Origin: Archaeoglobus sulfaticallidus PM70-1
Lineage (GTDB): Archaea > Halobacteriota > Archaeoglobi > Archaeoglobales > Archaeoglobaceae
Length of the DNA stretch: 64,000 nucleotides
Reading direction: 5' to 3'
NCBI RefSeq assembly: GCF_000385565.1
Contig: NC_021169.1
Span: 1,966,571 to 2,030,570, forward strand
Positions 1,302-18,788 of this stretch are shown piece after piece. Positions within the stretch are counted from its first letter, which is position 1; the number at the start of each line of letters is the position of its first letter. Made by a program: the position numbers and the translations under genes. The notes below the pieces were generated by a model. The model had not been told where the DNA came from, made no database searches, and saw only the letters and a program-made list of their open reading frames with translations.

Positions 1302-1385
1302 GCGGGGGTTGCCGAGTCAGGAAAAGGCGCAAGGCTTAAGACCTTGTCCCGCAGGGGTCCGAGGGTTCAAATCCCTCCCCCCGCA
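1302..1385 (+). tRNA. tRNA-Leu (UAA)
   Basis: An 84-nt class II tRNA. The acceptor stem is gcggggg pairing with cccccgc, with discriminator A. The anticodon stem caagg/ccttg encloses loop CTTAAGA, giving anticodon UAA (leucine). A long variable arm lies around 1345-1358, and the T arm is gaggg-ttcaaat-ccctc. No intron is seen and the 3' CCA is not encoded. A tyrosine recombinase operon begins 47 bases downstream, the classic position for an integrase that uses a tRNA 3' end as attachment site. Confidence 0.95.
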
Positions 1386-1431
1386 TTAATTTACCAGTAA
1401 ATAATAAATAGATTTAAGACTATCTATTCTT

Positions 1432-1968
1432 ATGCCAAGACCAAACAGAGGTAAAACTGAGACTGTTAAGAAACGAGCAATCTATGTTTATCTCCCATCC
1501 GAAGAGATGGCAGAAGAGTGGAAAAGAATAGCAAAGGAAAGAAACATTTCCATATCAAAATTTGTGGTTGAGTGCGTTCAGGAGTCGCTCTCAAAAGATG
1601 AATCGGATTTTGTTTCGAGAAAAGAGCTTCTTGACAGAGTTAAAAAACTTGAAGATGAGAATAAGGAGCTGAGAAAGGAGAACAGGATGCTTAAAAATCT
1701 TGTTGATAAGCTTGACGAGGAGTTGAAGATTTACAGAGCAAAACCCTTCCTCGAAAGTGAATTCGTTGGAAAGAGGGAATTCTCTGATGAGTTGATAGAT
1801 CTATTCAAAAGAAGGAAGTATGTGGAATACGAAGAGCTCTACTTACTCCTGAATGTTGATCCGGTAAATGACCAGGAACTGGTCAGGAGTTACCTCAGGC
1901 AGATAGAGGCACTCGAACAGTATGGCTTAATTGAGTCCACCGCGAGGGGGTGGAAATGGAAGCTCTGA
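1432..1968 (+). CDS. RHH / coiled-coil / winged-helix regulator paired with integrase
   Basis: A 178-residue protein. The basic N-terminus and residues ~14-52 (AIYVYLPSEEMAEEWKRIAK, then ISISKFVVE) fit a ribbon-helix-helix DNA-binding fold. Residues ~62-105 form a coiled coil (KKLEDENKELRKENRMLKNL) and residues ~115-178 look like a small winged helix. It overlaps the recombinase gene by 19 bases, so the two are co-transcribed and probably act together, for example as excision or architectural factor or as repressor. A TATA-like aataaatag precedes the ATG. No specific target is known. Confidence 0.65.
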   Translation: MPRPNRGKTETVKKRAIYVYLPSEEMAEEWKRIAKERNISISKFVVECVQESLSKDESDFVSRKELLDRVKKLEDENKELRKENRMLKNLVDKLDEELKIYRAKPFLESEFVGKREFSDELIDLFKRRKYVEYEELYLLLNVDPVNDQELVRSYLRQIEALEQYGLIESTARGWKWKL

Positions 1969-2882
1969 TGCAGACCTCATTCCTTGAGGCTTTCAGAGAG
2001 GACTGCATCAGCAGGGGAATGACTTCAGAGAGCATTAGAAGGTACATCTCCTGTCTCAGAATATTCCTGAAGTGGCTCGATGAGAGAAATGTTGACGTAA
2101 AAGGTGTTGATAAATTTGTCTTGAGGGACTTTCTATCTTATCTCAGAAGCAAGGGATTGAAGCAGAAGACTCTCGAAAACTACTTTTCAGCAATTTCCAG
2201 CTTCTATGACTTTCTGCTGTATGAAGGTGTTGTTAAAGGTAATCCAGTCAATCCTGTCAGAAAAAGGTATCTGAACCCGTACAAGAAAAATAAGAGTTCA
2301 GAGAAGAGAGTTCTCACGGTTGAGGAAGCAAGCCTGCTGGTTAACTCGATACCATATATCAGGGATAAGGCCATAGTCCTTCTCCTGCTAAAGACCGGAA
2401 TCAGAAGAGGTGAACTAATCTCGATTGACGTGCAGGATATAAACTGGGAAGAGCAATCGATACTCCTGAAACCAAAGGCAAAAAGGTCCAACAGAGTAGT
2501 ATTCTTCGATGACGAAACCGGAAGAATTCTCAAAAAATGGATGAAAGTTCGAGAGAAGCTGAATCCGAAGACTGATGCGCTGTTCGTTAATGAGAGGGGA
2601 GAAAGGCTCAGAAGAAATGGAGTTTACGGAGCAGTGACCAAGTGGGCTTCGATGCTTGGCTTCCATAATCCCGAATCTGACAATCCCATGGACCACTTCA
2701 CTCCACACACGTGCAGACACTGCTTCACAATGTGGCTGAGAAAGAGCGGAATGAGGAGAGAGTTCATTAAGGAGCTTAGAGGAGATTCAAGAAGAGAGGC
2801 AATTGATATCTACGACCACATAGATAAAGATGAGCTAAGAAAAGCTTATCTCGCGCATATACCGAAGCTGGGTGTTGAATAA
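1950..2882 (+). CDS. tyrosine recombinase / integrase, XerC/D-like
   Basis: A 310-residue integrase with a SAM-like core-binding domain (residues ~8-95) and a catalytic domain (~120-305). Catalytic residues visible are Arg152 in TGIRRGE, the His253-x-x-Arg256 pair in HTCRH, and Tyr288 in IDIYDH. The usual second His/Trp before the tyrosine is replaced by Asp279 (LRGDS), a variant I recall from haloarchaeal and plasmid integrases. It lies 0.6 kb past tRNA-Leu and overlaps the RHH gene, so it probably performed site-specific integration at the tRNA. A role as the chromosomal dimer resolvase XerA is less likely given the RGD variant and the partner gene. Confidence 0.85.
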   Translation: MEMEALMQTSFLEAFREDCISRGMTSESIRRYISCLRIFLKWLDERNVDVKGVDKFVLRDFLSYLRSKGLKQKTLENYFSAISSFYDFLLYEGVVKGNPVNPVRKRYLNPYKKNKSSEKRVLTVEEASLLVNSIPYIRDKAIVLLLLKTGIRRGELISIDVQDINWEEQSILLKPKAKRSNRVVFFDDETGRILKKWMKVREKLNPKTDALFVNERGERLRRNGVYGAVTKWASMLGFHNPESDNPMDHFTPHTCRHCFTMWLRKSGMRREFIKELRGDSRREAIDIYDHIDKDELRKAYLAHIPKLGVE

Positions 2883-2924
2883 TCCATAAAATAAAATTTT
2901 AAAATTTTTAGAATTCAAAAAATC

Positions 2925-4010
2925 TTACAGCTTTTCTACCAGTAGATCTTCTTTAAGATAGATCAGGCCCAGTGCGTTGAATACTTCCCATAAACCTCTA
3001 TCAATTTTCTGGAACAGTGTTGTGTCTGGATGGTAAAAACTTGAAACTCCAAAGCAGGCCAATGGGACACTAAAACCATCATAATCAGTCAATTTACTCT
3101 GTATGTCTTCCTTTAGATTAATTATCTCTTTTCCTATTCTATCATCTATTCCTACTGAGTTTCCCAAATCTTTGAAGAATTTGTGGATATTTCCTTTGTA
3201 TTTTATATGCAACACCGGAGGTATCGAAACGAAAAATAAACCGAGTTTCGCAAATTCCCACACCTCCTCGTCAGAATATTTTCCTTGGTTGCAAAGCACA
3301 AAAAATTTCAGTGCTTCGTGGGAATACTTTACCGTTGAGAGTATAGCCCAGATAGGAGGACTATCTATTAATGACATGATTGCCTTACCTTTCATTTGGT
3401 TGAACAATGTTAAAAATGACGTATCCGAGTTCCTTTCGGAGGATATATTAAGAAGTTTGATTAAATCTTTGGACAACTCATTTACCTTTTTCATAGTTTC
3501 AGGATCTAGGTTTGATAGCAAGTCACCAATGTGTCGTTCTAAATACGTTTTTTTGGTACTGGAAGACAAAATAAGCAGTCTTCTAATTTCATCACTAAAC
3601 GCATTTTTGAGCTTATCAAGTTCGGCTTTTAAGAAGTCTATAACCAAATTACCAAAATCTGTGTGCATGAGCTCCACATAGTCGCCCTTGTAATTCTCAA
3701 ATACTTCAACTACACACCTTAAGACGTTCCAGTCCACATTTTTAAACTCTATAACGTGTCTCTCACGCCGTTTCCTTCGTGGTCTTATTTTAACACAGCC
3801 CATATCTTCTAGTCCAGGATAGCCAGATTTCTCATCATTTACCTCCTGCGAGATTTGTTTGTAGATCGCAAATTCCTTTATATTCATCCGCATTTTATTT
3901 TTTAATACGTCAAAAAGCGTTGCATAGTCCATCTCCCCATTACCGCACTTCCAGAGTGCCAGTAATATCTCTTTCTTAGAAGACTTCGGCACACCACTGG
4001 TCATATTCAT
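2925..4010 (-). CDS. hypothetical 361-residue protein, foreign-looking
   Basis: Not recognised. The N-terminal ~75 residues (KKEILLALWKCGNGEMDYAT and what follows) look like a winged helix, followed by a basic patch RPRRKRRERH near residues 75-85 and a long mostly helical body. There is no signal peptide or catalytic motif. It is convergent with the integrase, more AT-rich than the core genes around it, and faces a very AT-rich spacer, all consistent with cargo of an integrated element. It could be an element-borne regulator; no function is claimed. Confidence 0.5.
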   Translation of the reverse strand: MNMTSGVPKSSKKEILLALWKCGNGEMDYATLFDVLKNKMRMNIKEFAIYKQISQEVNDEKSGYPGLEDMGCVKIRPRRKRRERHVIEFKNVDWNVLRCVVEVFENYKGDYVELMHTDFGNLVIDFLKAELDKLKNAFSDEIRRLLILSSSTKKTYLERHIGDLLSNLDPETMKKVNELSKDLIKLLNISSERNSDTSFLTLFNQMKGKAIMSLIDSPPIWAILSTVKYSHEALKFFVLCNQGKYSDEEVWEFAKLGLFFVSIPPVLHIKYKGNIHKFFKDLGNSVGIDDRIGKEIINLKEDIQSKLTDYDGFSVPLACFGVSSFYHPDTTLFQKIDRGLWEVFNALGLIYLKEDLLVEKL

Positions 4011-4240
4011 ATTTATTGAAATTTTATTTCTTATAATTTTTTGTTTTGTTTTATCTGTTATGTTATTATATTATAGTTAATATATTTAATAATTAATTCT
4101 TTTTCAGTTTATGTACTTGAAATTCTTTAGGATCAAGAATTCAGTTGATAGAATTTTTCTGCATTTATATTTCTATTAATTTAACTTTCAATTTTTATTA
4201 AATTATAATAAATTTTAAAACTCCATGCAGAACCAATATC
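4011..4240. other. extremely AT-rich divergent spacer
   Basis: The 230 bases between two divergent unknown genes are almost entirely A and T (runs such as ttttttgttttgttttat and attatattatagttaatat). It contains TATA-like motifs, including tttaaaact about 25 bases before the ATG at 4241. Beyond promoters, such AT-rich segments act as unwinding elements near replication origins, and an Orc1/Cdc6 fragment lies about 350 bases downstream. I saw no clear ORB-type repeats. Confidence 0.4.
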
Positions 4241-4546
4241 ATGGTCAATATAGCCTCCGAACGCCATAAACTGAGTAATGGTGTTCGATTGGAGATCTGT
4301 TCCGAATACATAGGACATCTTGAGGATGTCGAAGTAGGCCATAAAGTGATAAAACTCAGATTTAGGAACGGAGATATAATAAAAATCAATTGTAGCACAG
4401 AAATGGCACAAAAGCTCAGAAGATCCATAGGAAAGAAAATATCCGTTTTACATACCGATGATCCCGAAAAAAGTTCATTTTACACGATTTTGAGGCTAAA
4501 GAAAATATTTACTGCAAAGGAGGTGATAAAAACGTTTGTTGGTTAG
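4241..4546 (+). CDS. hypothetical 101-residue protein
   Basis: Not recognised. It is a small soluble protein with a beta-rich middle (KVIKLRFRNGDIIKINC) and a basic C-terminal third, and no membrane segment. A TATA box about 25 bases before the ATG suggests leaderless transcription from the AT-rich spacer. It sits between the AT-rich divergent promoter and the Orc1/Cdc6 remnant, so it is probably part of the same decayed element. Confidence 0.5.
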   Translation: MVNIASERHKLSNGVRLEICSEYIGHLEDVEVGHKVIKLRFRNGDIIKINCSTEMAQKLRRSIGKKISVLHTDDPEKSSFYTILRLKKIFTAKEVIKTFVG

Positions 4547-4593
4547 AACGATCAATTGTGCGGTCTGCATAAGTTAACTAACGGAGTACATAA

Positions 4594-4896
4594 CTGGGCA
4601 CCGGATTTTCCCATAAAACCGAGAGGCACCGAATTCTTCCCACCACAATTAGGCACCAGAAAATCACACTACCCAAGGATGCCCAGCTCAGGGCTCTCAC
4701 ATCAAATCTGAAGCCCATGCTGTCGGGGATGAATGCCATCGATACCGTCTGCATAGGCCCTCCCGCAACCGGCAAGACGTCATGCGTGAGAAAGATCATC
4801 TCATCTGCTGAGATTAAGGCTGGATACGTGAACGCCTCCCTCGTAAGAACCAGATCAGAACTTGCAACCAGTCTTCAATTTTACCGAAAATTTTAA
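4594..4896 (+). pseudogene. Orc1/Cdc6 replication initiator, N-terminal fragment
   Basis: A 100-codon open frame with no good start reads LPKDAQLRALTSNLKPML, then a Walker A motif GPPATGKT at ~4756-4779, then VRKIISSAEIKAGYVNAS and RTRSEL before a stop at 4894. This order matches the start of the Orc1/Cdc6 AAA+ domain (re-entry helix, [12 protein letters not shown]-type strand). Walker B, sensor and winged-helix regions are absent, so it is a truncated non-functional copy. A plasmid-type initiator beside an integrase supports an integrated replicon. Confidence 0.65.
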
Positions 4897-4997
4897 AAAA
4901 ACAGACCAGCTATTAAAAAACTGACCAAGATACACCACAATAAGAAGTTCTAAATATTATCAATAAATACTATAAATAAAATAGTGGTGGCAACCCG

Positions 4998-5447
4998 ATG
5001 AAAGAAGACGAAGAGAGCAAAGCTATAAAAATCCTAATAGCTGATGACGAAAAGGCACTGGTAGAAATCATCGAAAAAATGATAGTACATTTTTTCAACC
5101 AGTATCCAAATTTCAATGTTGTGGTGTACAAAACAACCAGTGGTAAAGAAGCTTTTCAAAAGTATGCTGAGGTGAAACCCCACCTGTCCTTCATAGATCT
5201 CGTCATGCGTGATAAACATGGCATGGAGTTAATAGACGAGATCACGAGTAACTTCCAGAATTCAAAGATAATTGTGCTTTCTCCCTTTTCAGAATCGATA
5301 ATCAGGGAAGTCAAAAAATTGGGTAAAGATACAACCGTACTGACAAAACCATTCAGGATAAGAGATCTATACACAGCAATAAGTAAAGTTCTATCAACCG
5401 ATTTTCCTGAGTTTTCCACTTGTTTCAGAACAGATATGAGTTTATAA
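4998..5447 (+). CDS. orphan response-regulator receiver protein
   Basis: A 149-residue stand-alone receiver (REC) domain. The acidic pair Asp16-Asp17 (ILIADDE), phospho-acceptor Asp67 (FIDLVM), Ser95 (IVLSP) and Lys117 (LTKPF) are all in place, so it should be phosphorylatable. There is no output domain: after the receiver only about 20 residues remain. No histidine kinase is adjacent; the nearest sensor in the window is the PAS protein at 36-38.6 kb. A gtggtgg ribosome-binding site lies a few bases before the ATG. Confidence 0.85.
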   Translation: MKEDEESKAIKILIADDEKALVEIIEKMIVHFFNQYPNFNVVVYKTTSGKEAFQKYAEVKPHLSFIDLVMRDKHGMELIDEITSNFQNSKIIVLSPFSESIIREVKKLGKDTTVLTKPFRIRDLYTAISKVLSTDFPEFSTCFRTDMSL

Positions 5448-5676
5448 ATCACCCACTTCCAGCATTTCTCGCATTATCCTTTCCCCCAATTTGGAAGATA
5501 GCTCGTCAGCCTCTGAACCGCTCATGTTCCCATCATATGCATGTGATACCGATTTTTTCCTATGTGTACTGCAACAACATCATGGATGTCATGAATGCTA
5601 TCAAACCTTCTCTCTCAGATTTCTCATAGAACTCATTCGATTTCCCGAATTAACTCACAACAAAGACAATTGTGGT
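5442..5676 (-). pseudogene. degraded gene fragment, unknown family
   Basis: On the minus strand a coherent C-terminus reads HDVVAVHIGKKSVSHAYDGN followed by MSGSEADELSSKLGERIMRE to a stop at 5442-5444. Upstream the reading continues only by changing frame (FGKSNEFYEKSEREGLIAF). The even amino-acid composition and natural ending argue for a once-real gene broken by frameshift. It overlaps the end of the receiver gene by six bases. I cannot name the family. Confidence 0.35.
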
Positions 5677-5678
5677 AT

Positions 5679-6821
5679 CTACCAGAGGTTTCCCTTCAAA
5701 TGGTGTGATATTTTATCTGTCGTGCTTCGCATGATCCTTCTGAATTCGAGAACATACTTTTCGCCATCGTGGTATGGATCGCTGAACCTGACATCAACAC
5801 CCATCCTAATCAGATGTACCTTGAAGAGTTCAAGTACTTCAAGGCTGCTGAATCTCAGTCTGTGATGTTCAGAGACTTCCCTTCCGCAACTGACATCAAT
5901 TACGCTTTTAATCATAGATTCCAGAATTGCCTTTCCTATCCTTTCACACCTTTCTTTGAATTTGCTTTCGTTTTCATTAAATTCGAAGCTCTGAAACGCT
6001 TCCCTTACAAGTCTTGAAAGCATGAAATCCTTTCCATAGTCGTTGAAGTATCTGAAAGCAAAGTATAAATCCGTGGCATTGGATTCACTTGTTGTATATT
6101 TTATCGGATTTATCTTCATTTCAGGATCCTTTAAAACTATCCCCTCTCTACCCTCGTTCCCTATTCGCTCAATAATATCTCTGCAAACCTCATGAGCTAC
6201 ATTTGTATCACATCTCTCCAGAATCGGAGCTAATTTAAACCCATACTCCTCTGCAATTTTCATTTTATTATCAATTGATAGAGATCTGTTAGACCTTTTC
6301 TCCCTCACATCAAATATATAAAAGTCCAGATCGGTGCCGTAGATGTCCTTAACCACAAATGGGGACTCTTTACCCACAACCTCACAGCAAAGCATGAGTT
6401 CTGGATAATGTCTGAAAAAAGAGCTGTCAATCATCTCCCTCGCTTTTTCTGTAGTATATGGACAGATGAAACCCCTTCTCGTTATTGCATATAGATTGCT
6501 GCCAAAGTTAACAATCCTTACATTATACCCGTTCATCTTTTCCTCAACAACCACCTCATCCCTGAAATGCTTTTTTATTGTTGGATGAAGTGTTAAAGCC
6601 CTCCTTATCTTCGGATATCCTCTGACTACTTCCAAACCATGCTTTGTTTTTGCTATAAGCGTACCCTCTTCAAATCCACCAAACTTTTTCTCGAGCTTGT
6701 ATGCAGAGACGATATCATGAAAAAAAGAGTGTTTAACAAAAGCTTCTCTCAGGAGGTTTCTCTCCTCCAGCCTTTTCGCAGCTGGAGGAGACAGGTGTAA
6801 AGCTTCCGCAACGAATTTCAT
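5679..6821 (-). CDS. archaeal ATP-dependent RNA ligase, Rnl3/Pab1020 family
   Basis: A 380-residue nucleotidyltransferase-fold ligase. The adenylation motif is VVEEKMNGYNVR with nucleophile Lys95; EGIVLKD near residue 230 fits motif IV and IKYT just after fits motif V. Length matches the ~380-residue archaeal RNA ligases that form homodimers and can circularise RNA. The ATG overlaps the stop of the CBS protein upstream, so the two are translationally coupled. The biological RNA substrate is unknown. An ATP-dependent DNA ligase is unlikely because such enzymes are longer and carry an OB domain. Confidence 0.85.
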   Translation of the reverse strand: MKFVAEALHLSPPAAKRLEERNLLREAFVKHSFFHDIVSAYKLEKKFGGFEEGTLIAKTKHGLEVVRGYPKIRRALTLHPTIKKHFRDEVVVEEKMNGYNVRIVNFGSNLYAITRRGFICPYTTEKAREMIDSSFFRHYPELMLCCEVVGKESPFVVKDIYGTDLDFYIFDVREKRSNRSLSIDNKMKIAEEYGFKLAPILERCDTNVAHEVCRDIIERIGNEGREGIVLKDPEMKINPIKYTTSESNATDLYFAFRYFNDYGKDFMLSRLVREAFQSFEFNENESKFKERCERIGKAILESMIKSVIDVSCGREVSEHHRLRFSSLEVLELFKVHLIRMGVDVRFSDPYHDGEKYVLEFRRIMRSTTDKISHHLKGNLW

Positions 6822-7748
6822 CTACATTTTGGAATACAGGAACCTTATGAGGTCTCTCTCGGTGATTATACCTTCAAGGTTTCCATTATTGACAACGAGA
6901 GCCACACCGTATCCTGATCCTTTCATAAGCTTCACAAGATCGGAAATTCTCTCATCCGGAGGCACGAGCAGTGGCTCCTTGTACACTCTAAGATTCTCGT
7001 TGGATAGTATGTGAGACAGGGGCTGATTCAGGGCTTCCTTGATGTCACCGGTTATCAGCATTTTGAAGGCCTCTCCACTCCCAAAATACCTCAAAATTTC
7101 TCTTGCAGTGACCAATCCAACGAATATACCATCCCTAATCACAGGAAGTCTTCTCATCTTCCTTGAGATCATCAGTTTCATGGCTTCCTCTACAGTAGTA
7201 TCAGGACTGGCTGTTATGACGCCCTTCGTCATATAATTCCTAACAAAACCATCAATTTCTCCATTTTCCGACAAATAGCTCAGGACATCCTTCTCGGTTA
7301 TTATGCCAAGAATTATATTATCTCTATCAACAACAGGGCAACCACCAACCCTTTTCTTTAGCATTAGCTCAATTGCATCTTCAAGAGAAGATGTAAAATC
7401 GATGCTTATCACATCTCCTTCCATTATGGCCTCAACCTCTTCGTTGACTGCAGCCATCAGATTTCCATCATATCTGTTCTGAACGATCTGGTACTTCTGC
7501 CCCCCTCCAAAGAAGTTTATTATATCCGTGACCGTTATAATTCCTTCAAGCCTCTTTGTTCCTGGGTCCGCTATGGGCATCCTTCTGAAATTGTACTTCA
7601 TCATCGACTTCACTGCAGACATTATCGTGGATGTTGGTGGTATCGTAACGACACTCTTCGTGCAGTAGTCCATTATTTCTCCTTCTTTCAGCTTTGCTGA
7701 GTTTTTCTTCTCCCTCGTAGGCTTTCCTGCGTAGTCTTTATACATCAT
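6822..7748 (-). CDS. four-CBS-domain protein
   Basis: A protein of about 308 residues made of four CBS repeats in two Bateman modules. Each repeat shows the typical ending GIITxxDI/L (GIITVTDIINF, GIITEKDVLSY, GLVTAREILRY, GIITERDLIRF). Such proteins bind adenosyl ligands (AMP, ATP, SAM) and act as energy or metabolite sensors, usually through partners. The chosen start (7748) follows GGTGAT; an upstream in-frame start at 7766 exists. It lies between a CBS/Zn-ribbon protein and RNA ligase in one minus-strand operon, suggesting that the ligase or its RNA is under metabolite control (inference). Confidence 0.85.
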   Translation of the reverse strand: MMYKDYAGKPTREKKNSAKLKEGEIMDYCTKSVVTIPPTSTIMSAVKSMMKYNFRRMPIADPGTKRLEGIITVTDIINFFGGGQKYQIVQNRYDGNLMAAVNEEVEAIMEGDVISIDFTSSLEDAIELMLKKRVGGCPVVDRDNIILGIITEKDVLSYLSENGEIDGFVRNYMTKGVITASPDTTVEEAMKLMISRKMRRLPVIRDGIFVGLVTAREILRYFGSGEAFKMLITGDIKEALNQPLSHILSNENLRVYKEPLLVPPDERISDLVKLMKGSGYGVALVVNNGNLEGIITERDLIRFLYSKM

Positions 7749-7762
7749 ATCACCAGAATAAA

Positions 7763-8338
7763 TCATCCCTCGTTAAGCTCTGCACAGTCCTCACAGAGCT
7801 TCAGACCATTATACTCGACAAGATTATCATAGAACTTCCCGCATTTCTCACACTTGCCAAACCTGACATCCTCATACTCACTCTCTCTCAAGAGCATCTT
7901 ATAGTTTTTAATCTCGTTGGACTCTATCAGATCCAGCGAGACACTCAAAATATCGTTGTCCGTTATTATCCCAACAAGCCTGTTTTCATTTACGATGGGC
8001 AACCTCCTGATTCCCTTTTTGAGCATTATTTGGGCTGCCTCCCTCAGGCTCGTCATCGGGTTTATCACAATTAGCGGTGTTGTCATTATATCCTTAAGCA
8101 AAACCTCTGAAGGGGTTTTATTTCTCGATACTACTTTCTCCAAAATATCCTTCTCGGTAACGATTCCAACGGGATTTCCGTTATCCAACACTACAATACT
8201 CCCAACACCACATTCAAGCATTTTTCTCGATGCATTGAGCAAGGAATCTTCAAGACTGGCTGTACAAACTTCTCTCGTCATAATTTCTTTCACTGGTATG
8301 TTATGGGGCATTTCCATCACTATGGGAAAGTCATCCAA
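7763..8338 (-). CDS. CBS-pair protein with C-terminal zinc ribbon
   Basis: About 190 residues. Two CBS repeats (ending GIVTEKDILEKV and GIITDNDILSVS) are followed by a zinc ribbon with Cys-x2-Cys pairs in CEKCGKFYDN and LKLCEDCAEL. The ribbon suggests nucleic-acid or protein binding controlled by an adenosyl ligand. A TATA-like actttaaaac at ~8341-8350 makes a start at the in-frame ATG 8317 plausible, shortening the N-terminus by seven residues. It is the first gene of the operon that continues to the four-CBS protein and RNA ligase. Confidence 0.8.
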   Translation of the reverse strand: MDDFPIVMEMPHNIPVKEIMTREVCTASLEDSLLNASRKMLECGVGSIVVLDNGNPVGIVTEKDILEKVVSRNKTPSEVLLKDIMTTPLIVINPMTSLREAAQIMLKKGIRRLPIVNENRLVGIITDNDILSVSLDLIESNEIKNYKMLLRESEYEDVRFGKCEKCGKFYDNLVEYNGLKLCEDCAELNEG

Positions 8339-17606: not shown

Positions 17607-18788
17607 ATGAGAGTTGCAATAGTGGATTGCTTTAACGGAGCTTCAGGAGATATGATCATAGCCTCACTGCTCGGCATATCTCTGAGCGAATCAGATCTGG
17701 ACAGGATTGCTAAGCTGCTGGATCTAAACATAGAATTTAGCGTAAAAACAGTTAATAAAAAAGGTATTTCGGCAAAAATGGTGGATGTTCTGGACAGGAA
17801 TACTGACAGAAAATTTAGCGATGTTAAAAATCTCATAAAGAAGCTGAAAAAAGACCAGGAACTCAAGGAAATATACCAACCCACATACGAAATCTTCAGA
17901 ATTCTGGCTGAAGCTGAAGCGAGAGTTCATGGAAAAGATATCGAAGAGATAGTTTTTCATGAAGTTGGTAGTGATGACGCAATATTCGATGTCGTCTCAT
18001 CAGCTCTTGGATTTTCAAGGCTGATCAGTAGAGGGTATGAAATATTTACAACACCGATCAACCTCGGCTATGGAGAGATTGAAATGCATCATGGCAGGTA
18101 TCCAGTACCAGCACCGGCAGTGGTCGAGATACTCAAGAATTCCAAGCTTGAAGTTTACTTTGGCAGGATAGGAGATGAAGAATTGTTCACACCAACAGCA
18201 TCAGCAATATTGTCTTACTTCTCAAATGGCTGTCTCAAGCACCCCTTCACGGTAGATGATGTTAGTTATGGAGCCGGAAAAAAAGATACCGATAAGCCAA
18301 ATGTTCTGAGGATCATGCTTGGAAGGGCAAGCGTTCATGACAGCATCGCCATTGTTGAAACGAATATCGATGATGTTAGCGGAGAGATTATGGGCAATGC
18401 GATGAATATTCTGACAAAAATTTGCCATGATATCTCAGCAATACCTGTATTCGGCAAAAAGAACAGGCCAGGATATATTTTGAAGGCCATATGTGATTTT
18501 AGCAAGGCTGAAGAGGTTGCGAGAGTCATGATGCACGAAACCGGGAGTCTGGGTGTTAGAATAATACCAGTATATCACAGAATGCTGGCTGAAAGGCATT
18601 TCAGAGAGGTTAAGATAAATGTACACGGAAAGGAATTCACAGTTAGATTCAAGGTTTCCTATCCAGATCAAAAAATTGCGAAGCCTGAATTTGAGGATGT
18701 GAGAAGAATTTCAGAAGAGATTGGAAAACCACTTCCCGAAGTTTACAGAATGGTTTTGAAATCATTCAACACAAGTGAGCGAATATGA
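17607..18788 (+). CDS. larC: LarC, nickel-pincer cofactor cyclometallase
   Basis: A 393-residue LarC family (DUF111) protein that inserts nickel into the pyridinium-thiocarboxylate pincer cofactor in a CTP-dependent reaction. It begins MRVAIVDCFNGASGDMIIAS, a hallmark, and contains EIVFHEVGSDDAIFDVVSSA and the late motif VETNIDDVSGEIMG. The gene is full length in one frame. A TATA-like atttaaataaa lies about 50 bases upstream. Neither larB, larE nor a lactate racemase is nearby. It overlaps radB by four bases (ATGA). Confidence 0.9.
   Translation: MRVAIVDCFNGASGDMIIASLLGISLSESDLDRIAKLLDLNIEFSVKTVNKKGISAKMVDVLDRNTDRKFSDVKNLIKKLKKDQELKEIYQPTYEIFRILAEAEARVHGKDIEEIVFHEVGSDDAIFDVVSSALGFSRLISRGYEIFTTPINLGYGEIEMHHGRYPVPAPAVVEILKNSKLEVYFGRIGDEELFTPTASAILSYFSNGCLKHPFTVDDVSYGAGKKDTDKPNVLRIMLGRASVHDSIAIVETNIDDVSGEIMGNAMNILTKICHDISAIPVFGKKNRPGYILKAICDFSKAEEVARVMMHETGSLGVRIIPVYHRMLAERHFREVKINVHGKEFTVRFKVSYPDQKIAKPEFEDVRRISEEIGKPLPEVYRMVLKSFNTSERI

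Follow-up and report, generated by a model that had tools for sequence, protein, structure and literature searches.

A tRNA-Leu(UAA) gene of Archaeoglobus sulfaticallidus PM70-1 is followed by what is very probably the stump, on the tRNA (attL) side, of an integrated plasmid that is of the classical, non-suicidal kind and belongs to a conserved family designated RHH-Int, after its ribbon-helix-helix (RHH) and integrase (Int) proteins. The gene lies near the start of the window, i.e. the whole stretch of 64,000 nucleotides that was analysed, which corresponds to positions 1,966,571-2,030,570 of a chromosome made of a single contig of 2,076,931 bp. We favour this reading because the same module is found at three isoacceptor genes, because one site is occupied in one genome and unoccupied in another, and because a complete element is present in the related genome G234 and two more in a sister clade. 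It is further supported by the overlap of the two module genes in every other pair, the enrichment of a palindrome, the intact and selected RHH and Int genes, the presence of a 101-aa hallmark gene, and the absence of a replication gene and of attR. The features of the locus are collected in Table 1.

Table 1. Features at the tRNA-Leu(UAA) locus (positions in the window)
Feature	Position	Strand	Evidence or remark
tRNA-Leu(UAA)	1302..1385	+	ARAGORN (1301-1386); Rfam (1302-1385, 56 bits)
att core (attL), tRNA 3' end, GAGGGTTCAAATCCCTCCCCCCGCA	about 1361-1385		Matching stretch recurs at far border of complete G234 element
Palindrome AATTTACCAGTAAATA	1388..1403	.	Beside att core; candidate operator and/or recombination arm site
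A+T box ATAATAAATA of the RHH-int operon	1401..1410	+	Read from sequence, about 25 nt before RHH start
RHH - coiled coil - winged-helix protein, 178 aa	1432..1968	+	AlphaFold2 model, 19-member alignment, purifying selection
Tyrosine recombinase (integrase), 310 aa, intact	1950..2882	+	PF00589 (Phage_integrase), E=1.1e-29
361-aa protein	2925..4010	-	No Pfam family
101-aa protein, intact	4241..4546	+	Third hallmark gene; no Pfam family
Orc1/Cdc6 gene fragment, 201 bp	4678..4878	+	92.6% DNA identity to intact Orc1 gene at 1.265 Mb of the same chromosome
Response-regulator receiver protein	4998..5447	+	PF00072, E=3.1e-14; between stump and core genes
RNA ligase and two CBS proteins	5679..8338	-	Host core cluster, outer limit of element

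The module behind the tRNA gene

The RHH reading frame starts 46 nt after the tRNA gene and overlaps by 19 nt that of the integrase, which starts 565 nt after the tRNA, in line with the claim of an earlier note that a tyrosine recombinase with an overlapping RHH partner closely follows this tRNA. The int gene is whole and uninterrupted, and its product has kept the catalytic residues Arg, Lys, HxxR and Tyr. Compared with the XerA model NF040815, the protein scored 176.8 bits, below the curated cut-off of 220 bits, and is thus not classed as a XerA chromosome-dimer recombinase. The pN/pS values of RHH (0.09/0.69, window versus G008) and of Int (0.13/0.79, window versus G013, with saturated synonymous sites) indicate that, across species, purifying selection acts strongly on both genes. 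The description of the element as decayed is therefore apt for its body, which has been lost together with the far att site, but not for the integration module, which is intact and under selection, nor for the 101-aa gene, an intact hallmark.

The RHH protein was modelled with AlphaFold2 at moderate confidence (mean pLDDT 74). In the model, two N-terminal helices pair up in the manner of RHH proteins, a coiled-coil helix of 40 residues comes next, and the C-terminus folds into a winged helix; a 19-member alignment agrees with this layout. No Pfam family fitted the window protein or its family, the low-scoring matches being mostly to coiled-coil entries, and profiles of Arc-like repressors matched weakly. 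The assignment of the RHH domain is based on the model, the alignment and these Arc-like matches. Foldseek searches with the model returned winged-helix matches only, all of them weak.

Of 33 RHH genes, 21 have a palindrome motif, TTTACNNGTAAA, upstream of them when one mismatch is allowed, versus 0.7% of random stretches of equal length. At tRNA-linked loci the palindrome lies a few nt past the tRNA end and precedes an A+T box, a box similar to ATAATAAATA following it in relatives as well. Judging from the sequence, this box probably represents the archaeal TATA box of the RHH-int operon and the palindrome probably serves as operator and/or recombination arm site. We infer that the RHH partner is probably an autorepressor and a directionality or accessory factor of recombination, acting on the palindrome beside the tRNA end. 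The far att site of G234 is abutted by a palindrome-like sequence, and the far arms of the two complete sister-clade elements (L215 and L217) have a long identical stretch in common; the similarity between near and far arms of one element was only marginal when compared with shuffles. Scans for sigma-70 promoters and terminators, models that do not apply to archaea, gave results at chance level.

The GC content is 33-37% over 3-5 kb of the window (43.2% for the genome; PMC3703591), and with the 361-aa and 101-aa genes falling outside Pfam, the AT-rich genes of unknown family that had been remarked on earlier are indeed there. The 361-aa protein has a partial relative in G008, at the same place and in the same orientation, and a winged-helix-like relative fragment in G034. 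A profile built from the small proteins of other RHH-Int elements, the window protein being excluded, retrieved the 101-aa protein with E=5.8e-9 among 2632 ORFs, as well as the gene after Int in G013 (E=5.9e-9). In many other elements the 101-aa gene stands directly before the gene for a large protein which, where recognisable, is DUF3854/DUF927 or NrS-1-polymerase-like and is probably a primase-type replication protein. No such ORF was found at 4546-5700 of the window, where only the Orc1 scrap and the response regulator are located, and none was seen after the 101-aa homologue of G013 either.

Copies in the Archaeoglobaceae and the wider phylum

The RHH-Int pair was found in three other Archaeoglobaceae, at tRNA-Leu(UAA) in G013, at tRNA-Leu(UAG) in G008 and at an intron-containing tRNA-Leu(CAA) in G004. 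The 3' flanks of these tRNA genes align with the window from the first bases past the tRNA, whereas their 5' flanks are unrelated to that of the window. Moreover, G008 carries the element at the tRNA-Leu(UAG) gene next to ccmE, whereas this site is free of it in G004, the 5' flanks being 83% identical. Although G004 and G008 share 98.8% identity in their RHH proteins, the two copies reside at different isoacceptors, and the 3' ends of the tRNA-Leu genes are nearly identical to one another, which indicates that the element moves among tRNA-Leu genes. These observations strongly support the conclusion that the stretch in the window is a true tRNA insertion. A stable core gene order at this tRNA, which would have spoken against the earlier note, was not what we found: a close relative of Int occurs in only 3 of the 54 other family genomes, at different isoacceptors and with unrelated 5' flanks.

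The copies are preserved to varying degrees. Int is frameshifted in G008, RHH contains a stop and is not followed by Int in G046, and about 24 codons of RHH are left after tRNA-Leu(CAG) in G045; these copies form a series of stumps and scars. The Int of G004 diverges from its relatives past residue 165, 48 nt before the contig end (L012:10496-10544), perhaps owing to an insertion.

Several other observations concern the tRNA-Leu genes themselves. tRNA-Leu(UAA) is a hot spot, with integrases of other types directly after or overlapping it in G008, G004 and G009 (L106:2104-3381, L107:6765-7658 and L096:8547-9145). The gene after tRNA-Leu(UAA) in G004 and G009, which had been considered as the ancestral neighbour, was actually such an integrase overlapping the tRNA. 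G022, considered as an empty site because about 10 kb separate its CBS-RNA ligase cluster from tRNA-Leu(UAA), was discarded since the order is opposite. Compared with G004 and G008, G001 has tRNA-Leu UAA and UAG genes with swapped 5' neighbourhoods (the ccmE and KaiC loci), the break being at the tRNA 5' end (L108:9892-9975 and L138:1501-1583 versus L106, L107, L133 and L134). This swap is a reciprocal exchange or an inversion between tRNA-Leu genes.

An RHH profile made from four proteins was run on 393 genomes of the phylum and matched in 25 of them, a few matches being weak or partial. RHH and int share 4-38 nt in each of the 26 other pairs. Across the phylum, tRNA-Leu genes of all five isoacceptors are occupied (UAA, UAG and CAA within the Archaeoglobaceae), and one RHH-Int locus comes after tRNA-Glu (L207). 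In a tree of Int proteins the window copy grouped with G013 and G234 (99/100), and the users of tRNA-Leu were clustered, with 3 label changes versus 8.2 after shuffling.

Complete elements were recovered as well. In G234 (L197), which belongs to another family of the same order, tRNA-Leu(CAG) occupies 614-698 and AGGGTTCAAATCCCTCCCCC recurs at 18661-18680, 18.0 kb apart. This element also encodes an unusual cargo, a 645-aa secreted-type protein (L197:12194-14131) with repeated units and a C-terminal end like a dockerin segment. Members of the sister clade have the RHH-Int pair next to the tRNA-distal att copy, pointing inward; the complete elements of this clade are L215 (tRNA-Gly, 16-bp repeat, 30.6 kb) and L217 (tRNA-Glu, 14 bp repeat, 16.3 kb). 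Complete members thus span 16-31 kb, and at their other border the tRNA 3' end is repeated over 14-24 bp. The view of the earlier note that an element has integrated at the tRNA and that its far boundary is lost is strongly supported by these data, as the relatives start at the 3' ends of different tRNA-Leu genes and one of them is a complete copy with two att sites.

With an RHH-coiled-coil-winged-helix gene overlapping int and with the 101-aa hallmark gene, the window copy displays the traits of the family, of which it is a well-preserved remnant. Scans of viral contigs with Int, RHH, the 361-aa protein and an att-plus-palindrome pattern gave no match, nor did searches of plasmid and phage records with the RHH relatives and the 361-aa protein. 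A literature search, mainly of freely accessible papers, yielded no description of the family, which is apparently undescribed. A partial survey of gene content brought no virion gene to light among the proteins inspected, and primase-like replication genes occur in related elements; of the plasmid or virus origin suggested previously, it is the plasmid side that is borne out.

The missing far border and alternative readings

The window copy is termed a stump because its far border lacks the directly repeated tRNA 3' end that is present in G234, G288 and G327. As the earlier note had reported, no second tRNA 3' end is found in the window, a scan giving one 11-bp match only, on the minus strand. 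The direct repeat was also looked for in the chromosome, as that note had advised: patterns of 34 and 23 nt, in which as many as 3 mismatches were allowed, retrieved the five tRNA-Leu genes only. Beyond the window and its 20-kb flanks, which were scanned as well, these patterns would miss an att copy that bears an indel as in G234. Thus, attR is missing and the right border of the element is not fixed. The RNA ligase that marks the outer limit is present in 51 of the 55 family genomes, and the ligase-CBS-CBS order is conserved in 4 congeners, where the response-regulator gene has no relative beside the ligase cluster. The DNA that flanks the stump up to the intact genes (540-1300 and 5450-5678 of the window) is apparently gene-free and looks degraded. 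A palindrome-like sequence at 4877-4893, beside the Orc1 scrap, was considered as attR; it is at chance level for AT-rich DNA and is not claimed.

We considered the possibility that the element is complete and still mobile, its attR being so short or diverged that it was overlooked. RHH and Int are intact and under selection, and a pattern with 3 mismatches would overlook the attR of G234, which lacks 1 nt. Yet, there is no match of at least 12 nt to the tRNA 3' region in the 62 kb downstream, no replication gene is present, and core genes begin by 5.7 kb, far short of the length of complete members; continued mobility is therefore very improbable. We also deem it most unlikely that the RHH-Int pair is no longer a mobile relic, the host having domesticated it to serve the chromosome, for instance in dimer resolution or in inversion at tRNA loci. 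Such a role would fit with the strong purifying selection across species and with the reciprocal exchange between two tRNA-Leu loci in a relative, but this selection also reflects life in mobile copies. Furthermore, the pair is missing from nearly all family genomes, sits at a different locus in each, and is broken in G008 and G046.

A mixed origin of the locus deserves more weight, owing to the Orc1/Cdc6 fragment, which had been recognised before and which matches NF001624 (ORC1-type replication protein) over 4690-4896 with E=9e-10. The intact gene lies in a second plasmid-like island of the same genome (1258000-1280000; L123 and L124), which encodes a family-B DNA polymerase, Orc1/Cdc6, SNase-LTD and two integrases of 410-433 aa. 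It is quite possible, if short of probable, that the RHH-Int-361-101 stump and the Orc1 scrap derive from two plasmids, the scrap having arrived through recombination with this 1.26-Mb island. The close identity over 201 bp, the abrupt ends of the similarity to the island gene and the fact that most family members use primase-type replication, not Orc1, all suggest this. However, two genes of the island, the gene before PolB-Orc1 (33.5%) and SNase-LTD (54-70%), have homologues in the RHH-Int element of G013, which makes an Orc1-bearing version of the family plausible. The scrap may thus belong to the RHH-Int element or may have come from the island.

Proposed mechanism and relation to known systems

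Reading the locus as the attL stump of an integrated plasmid, we start from what is directly observed, namely the site, the module, its intactness and the att repeats of relatives. The attP core of a circular plasmid would match the tRNA 3' end exactly, and Int, in the manner of classical (class II) integrases, would recombine this core with the tRNA gene. Integration would restore the whole tRNA and leave int intact, so that the reaction would be reversible in principle. The RHH protein would bind the palindrome beside the core, which overlaps its own promoter, and would thereby repress the operon and shape the recombination complex, acting as an accessory or directionality factor. A deletion would then have removed all DNA of the element past about 4.9 kb, and with it the replication gene and attR, the Orc1 scrap lying near the break. 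With attR lost, the stump would be unable to leave by the normal attL x attR reaction, although its Int may still act on tRNA-Leu sites or on incoming relatives. We tentatively extend this to a two-protein system, in which a single RHH-coiled-coil-winged-helix protein could be both operon repressor and directionality factor beside a core common to all tRNA-Leu genes, the family hopping between the isoacceptor genes of its hosts and leaving behind stumps with intact integrases.

Like the pNOB8-type (class II, classical) integrases, the window system has an att core (the tRNA 3' end) that lies outside int, here upstream of RHH, a restored tRNA and an int gene left intact by integration; the family adds to this the conserved RHH partner, the 101-aa gene and a preference for tRNA-Leu. 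The suicidal integrases of the pT26-2/SSV type are also archaeal and found in tRNA genes, one being known at tRNA-Leu (MVV1), but their att lies inside int, which is broken on integration, whereas int is whole in the window. The integrase of pC2A from Methanosarcina acetivorans is 45% identical to Int over 99% of the length and has the same RGD..Y signature; in this 5.5-kb plasmid, unlike in the window, none of the ORFs is an RHH gene preceding int. The AvPV1-like proviruses of Archaeoglobi (Thalassapleoviridae), a class to which the host belongs, are likewise integrated at tRNA genes (PMC10919331). They are reported at tRNA-Gly and with a virion module (PMC10919331); a module of this kind was not recognised in the stump.

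The nearest experimental parallel is IntSNJ2 of the pleolipovirus SNJ2, a classical integrase that acts at a tRNA 3' end with co-transcribed helper proteins (PMC8371274). Its coiled-coil and MarR-like helpers stimulate the inversion reaction up to 180-fold (PMC8371274). Compared by description, SNJ2, from haloarchaea, has two separate small helpers in the int operon, whereas the window has one RHH-coiled-coil-winged-helix protein upstream of int and overlapping it; by analogy, this protein would join both types of helper domain and add RHH. The SNJ2-type integrase family, defined by clustering with IntSNJ2 at 30% identity over 60% of the length, is said to be restricted to Halobacteria (PMC8371274).

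The RHH-Int family brings together, as parts of a single kind of element, hypothetical genes that were scattered over many archaeal lineages, and its graded series, from complete elements of 16-31 kb through intact stumps to scars of 24 codons, shows how tRNA-linked elements erode. Little is known of the factors that assist archaeal integrases or set their directionality, a review describing the SNJ2 helpers only (PMC8371274). RHH-Int provides a conserved and compact pair, represented here by that of a thermophile; as its tRNA-Leu core is defined and a candidate operator is clearly apparent, integration, excision and their control can be tested directly.
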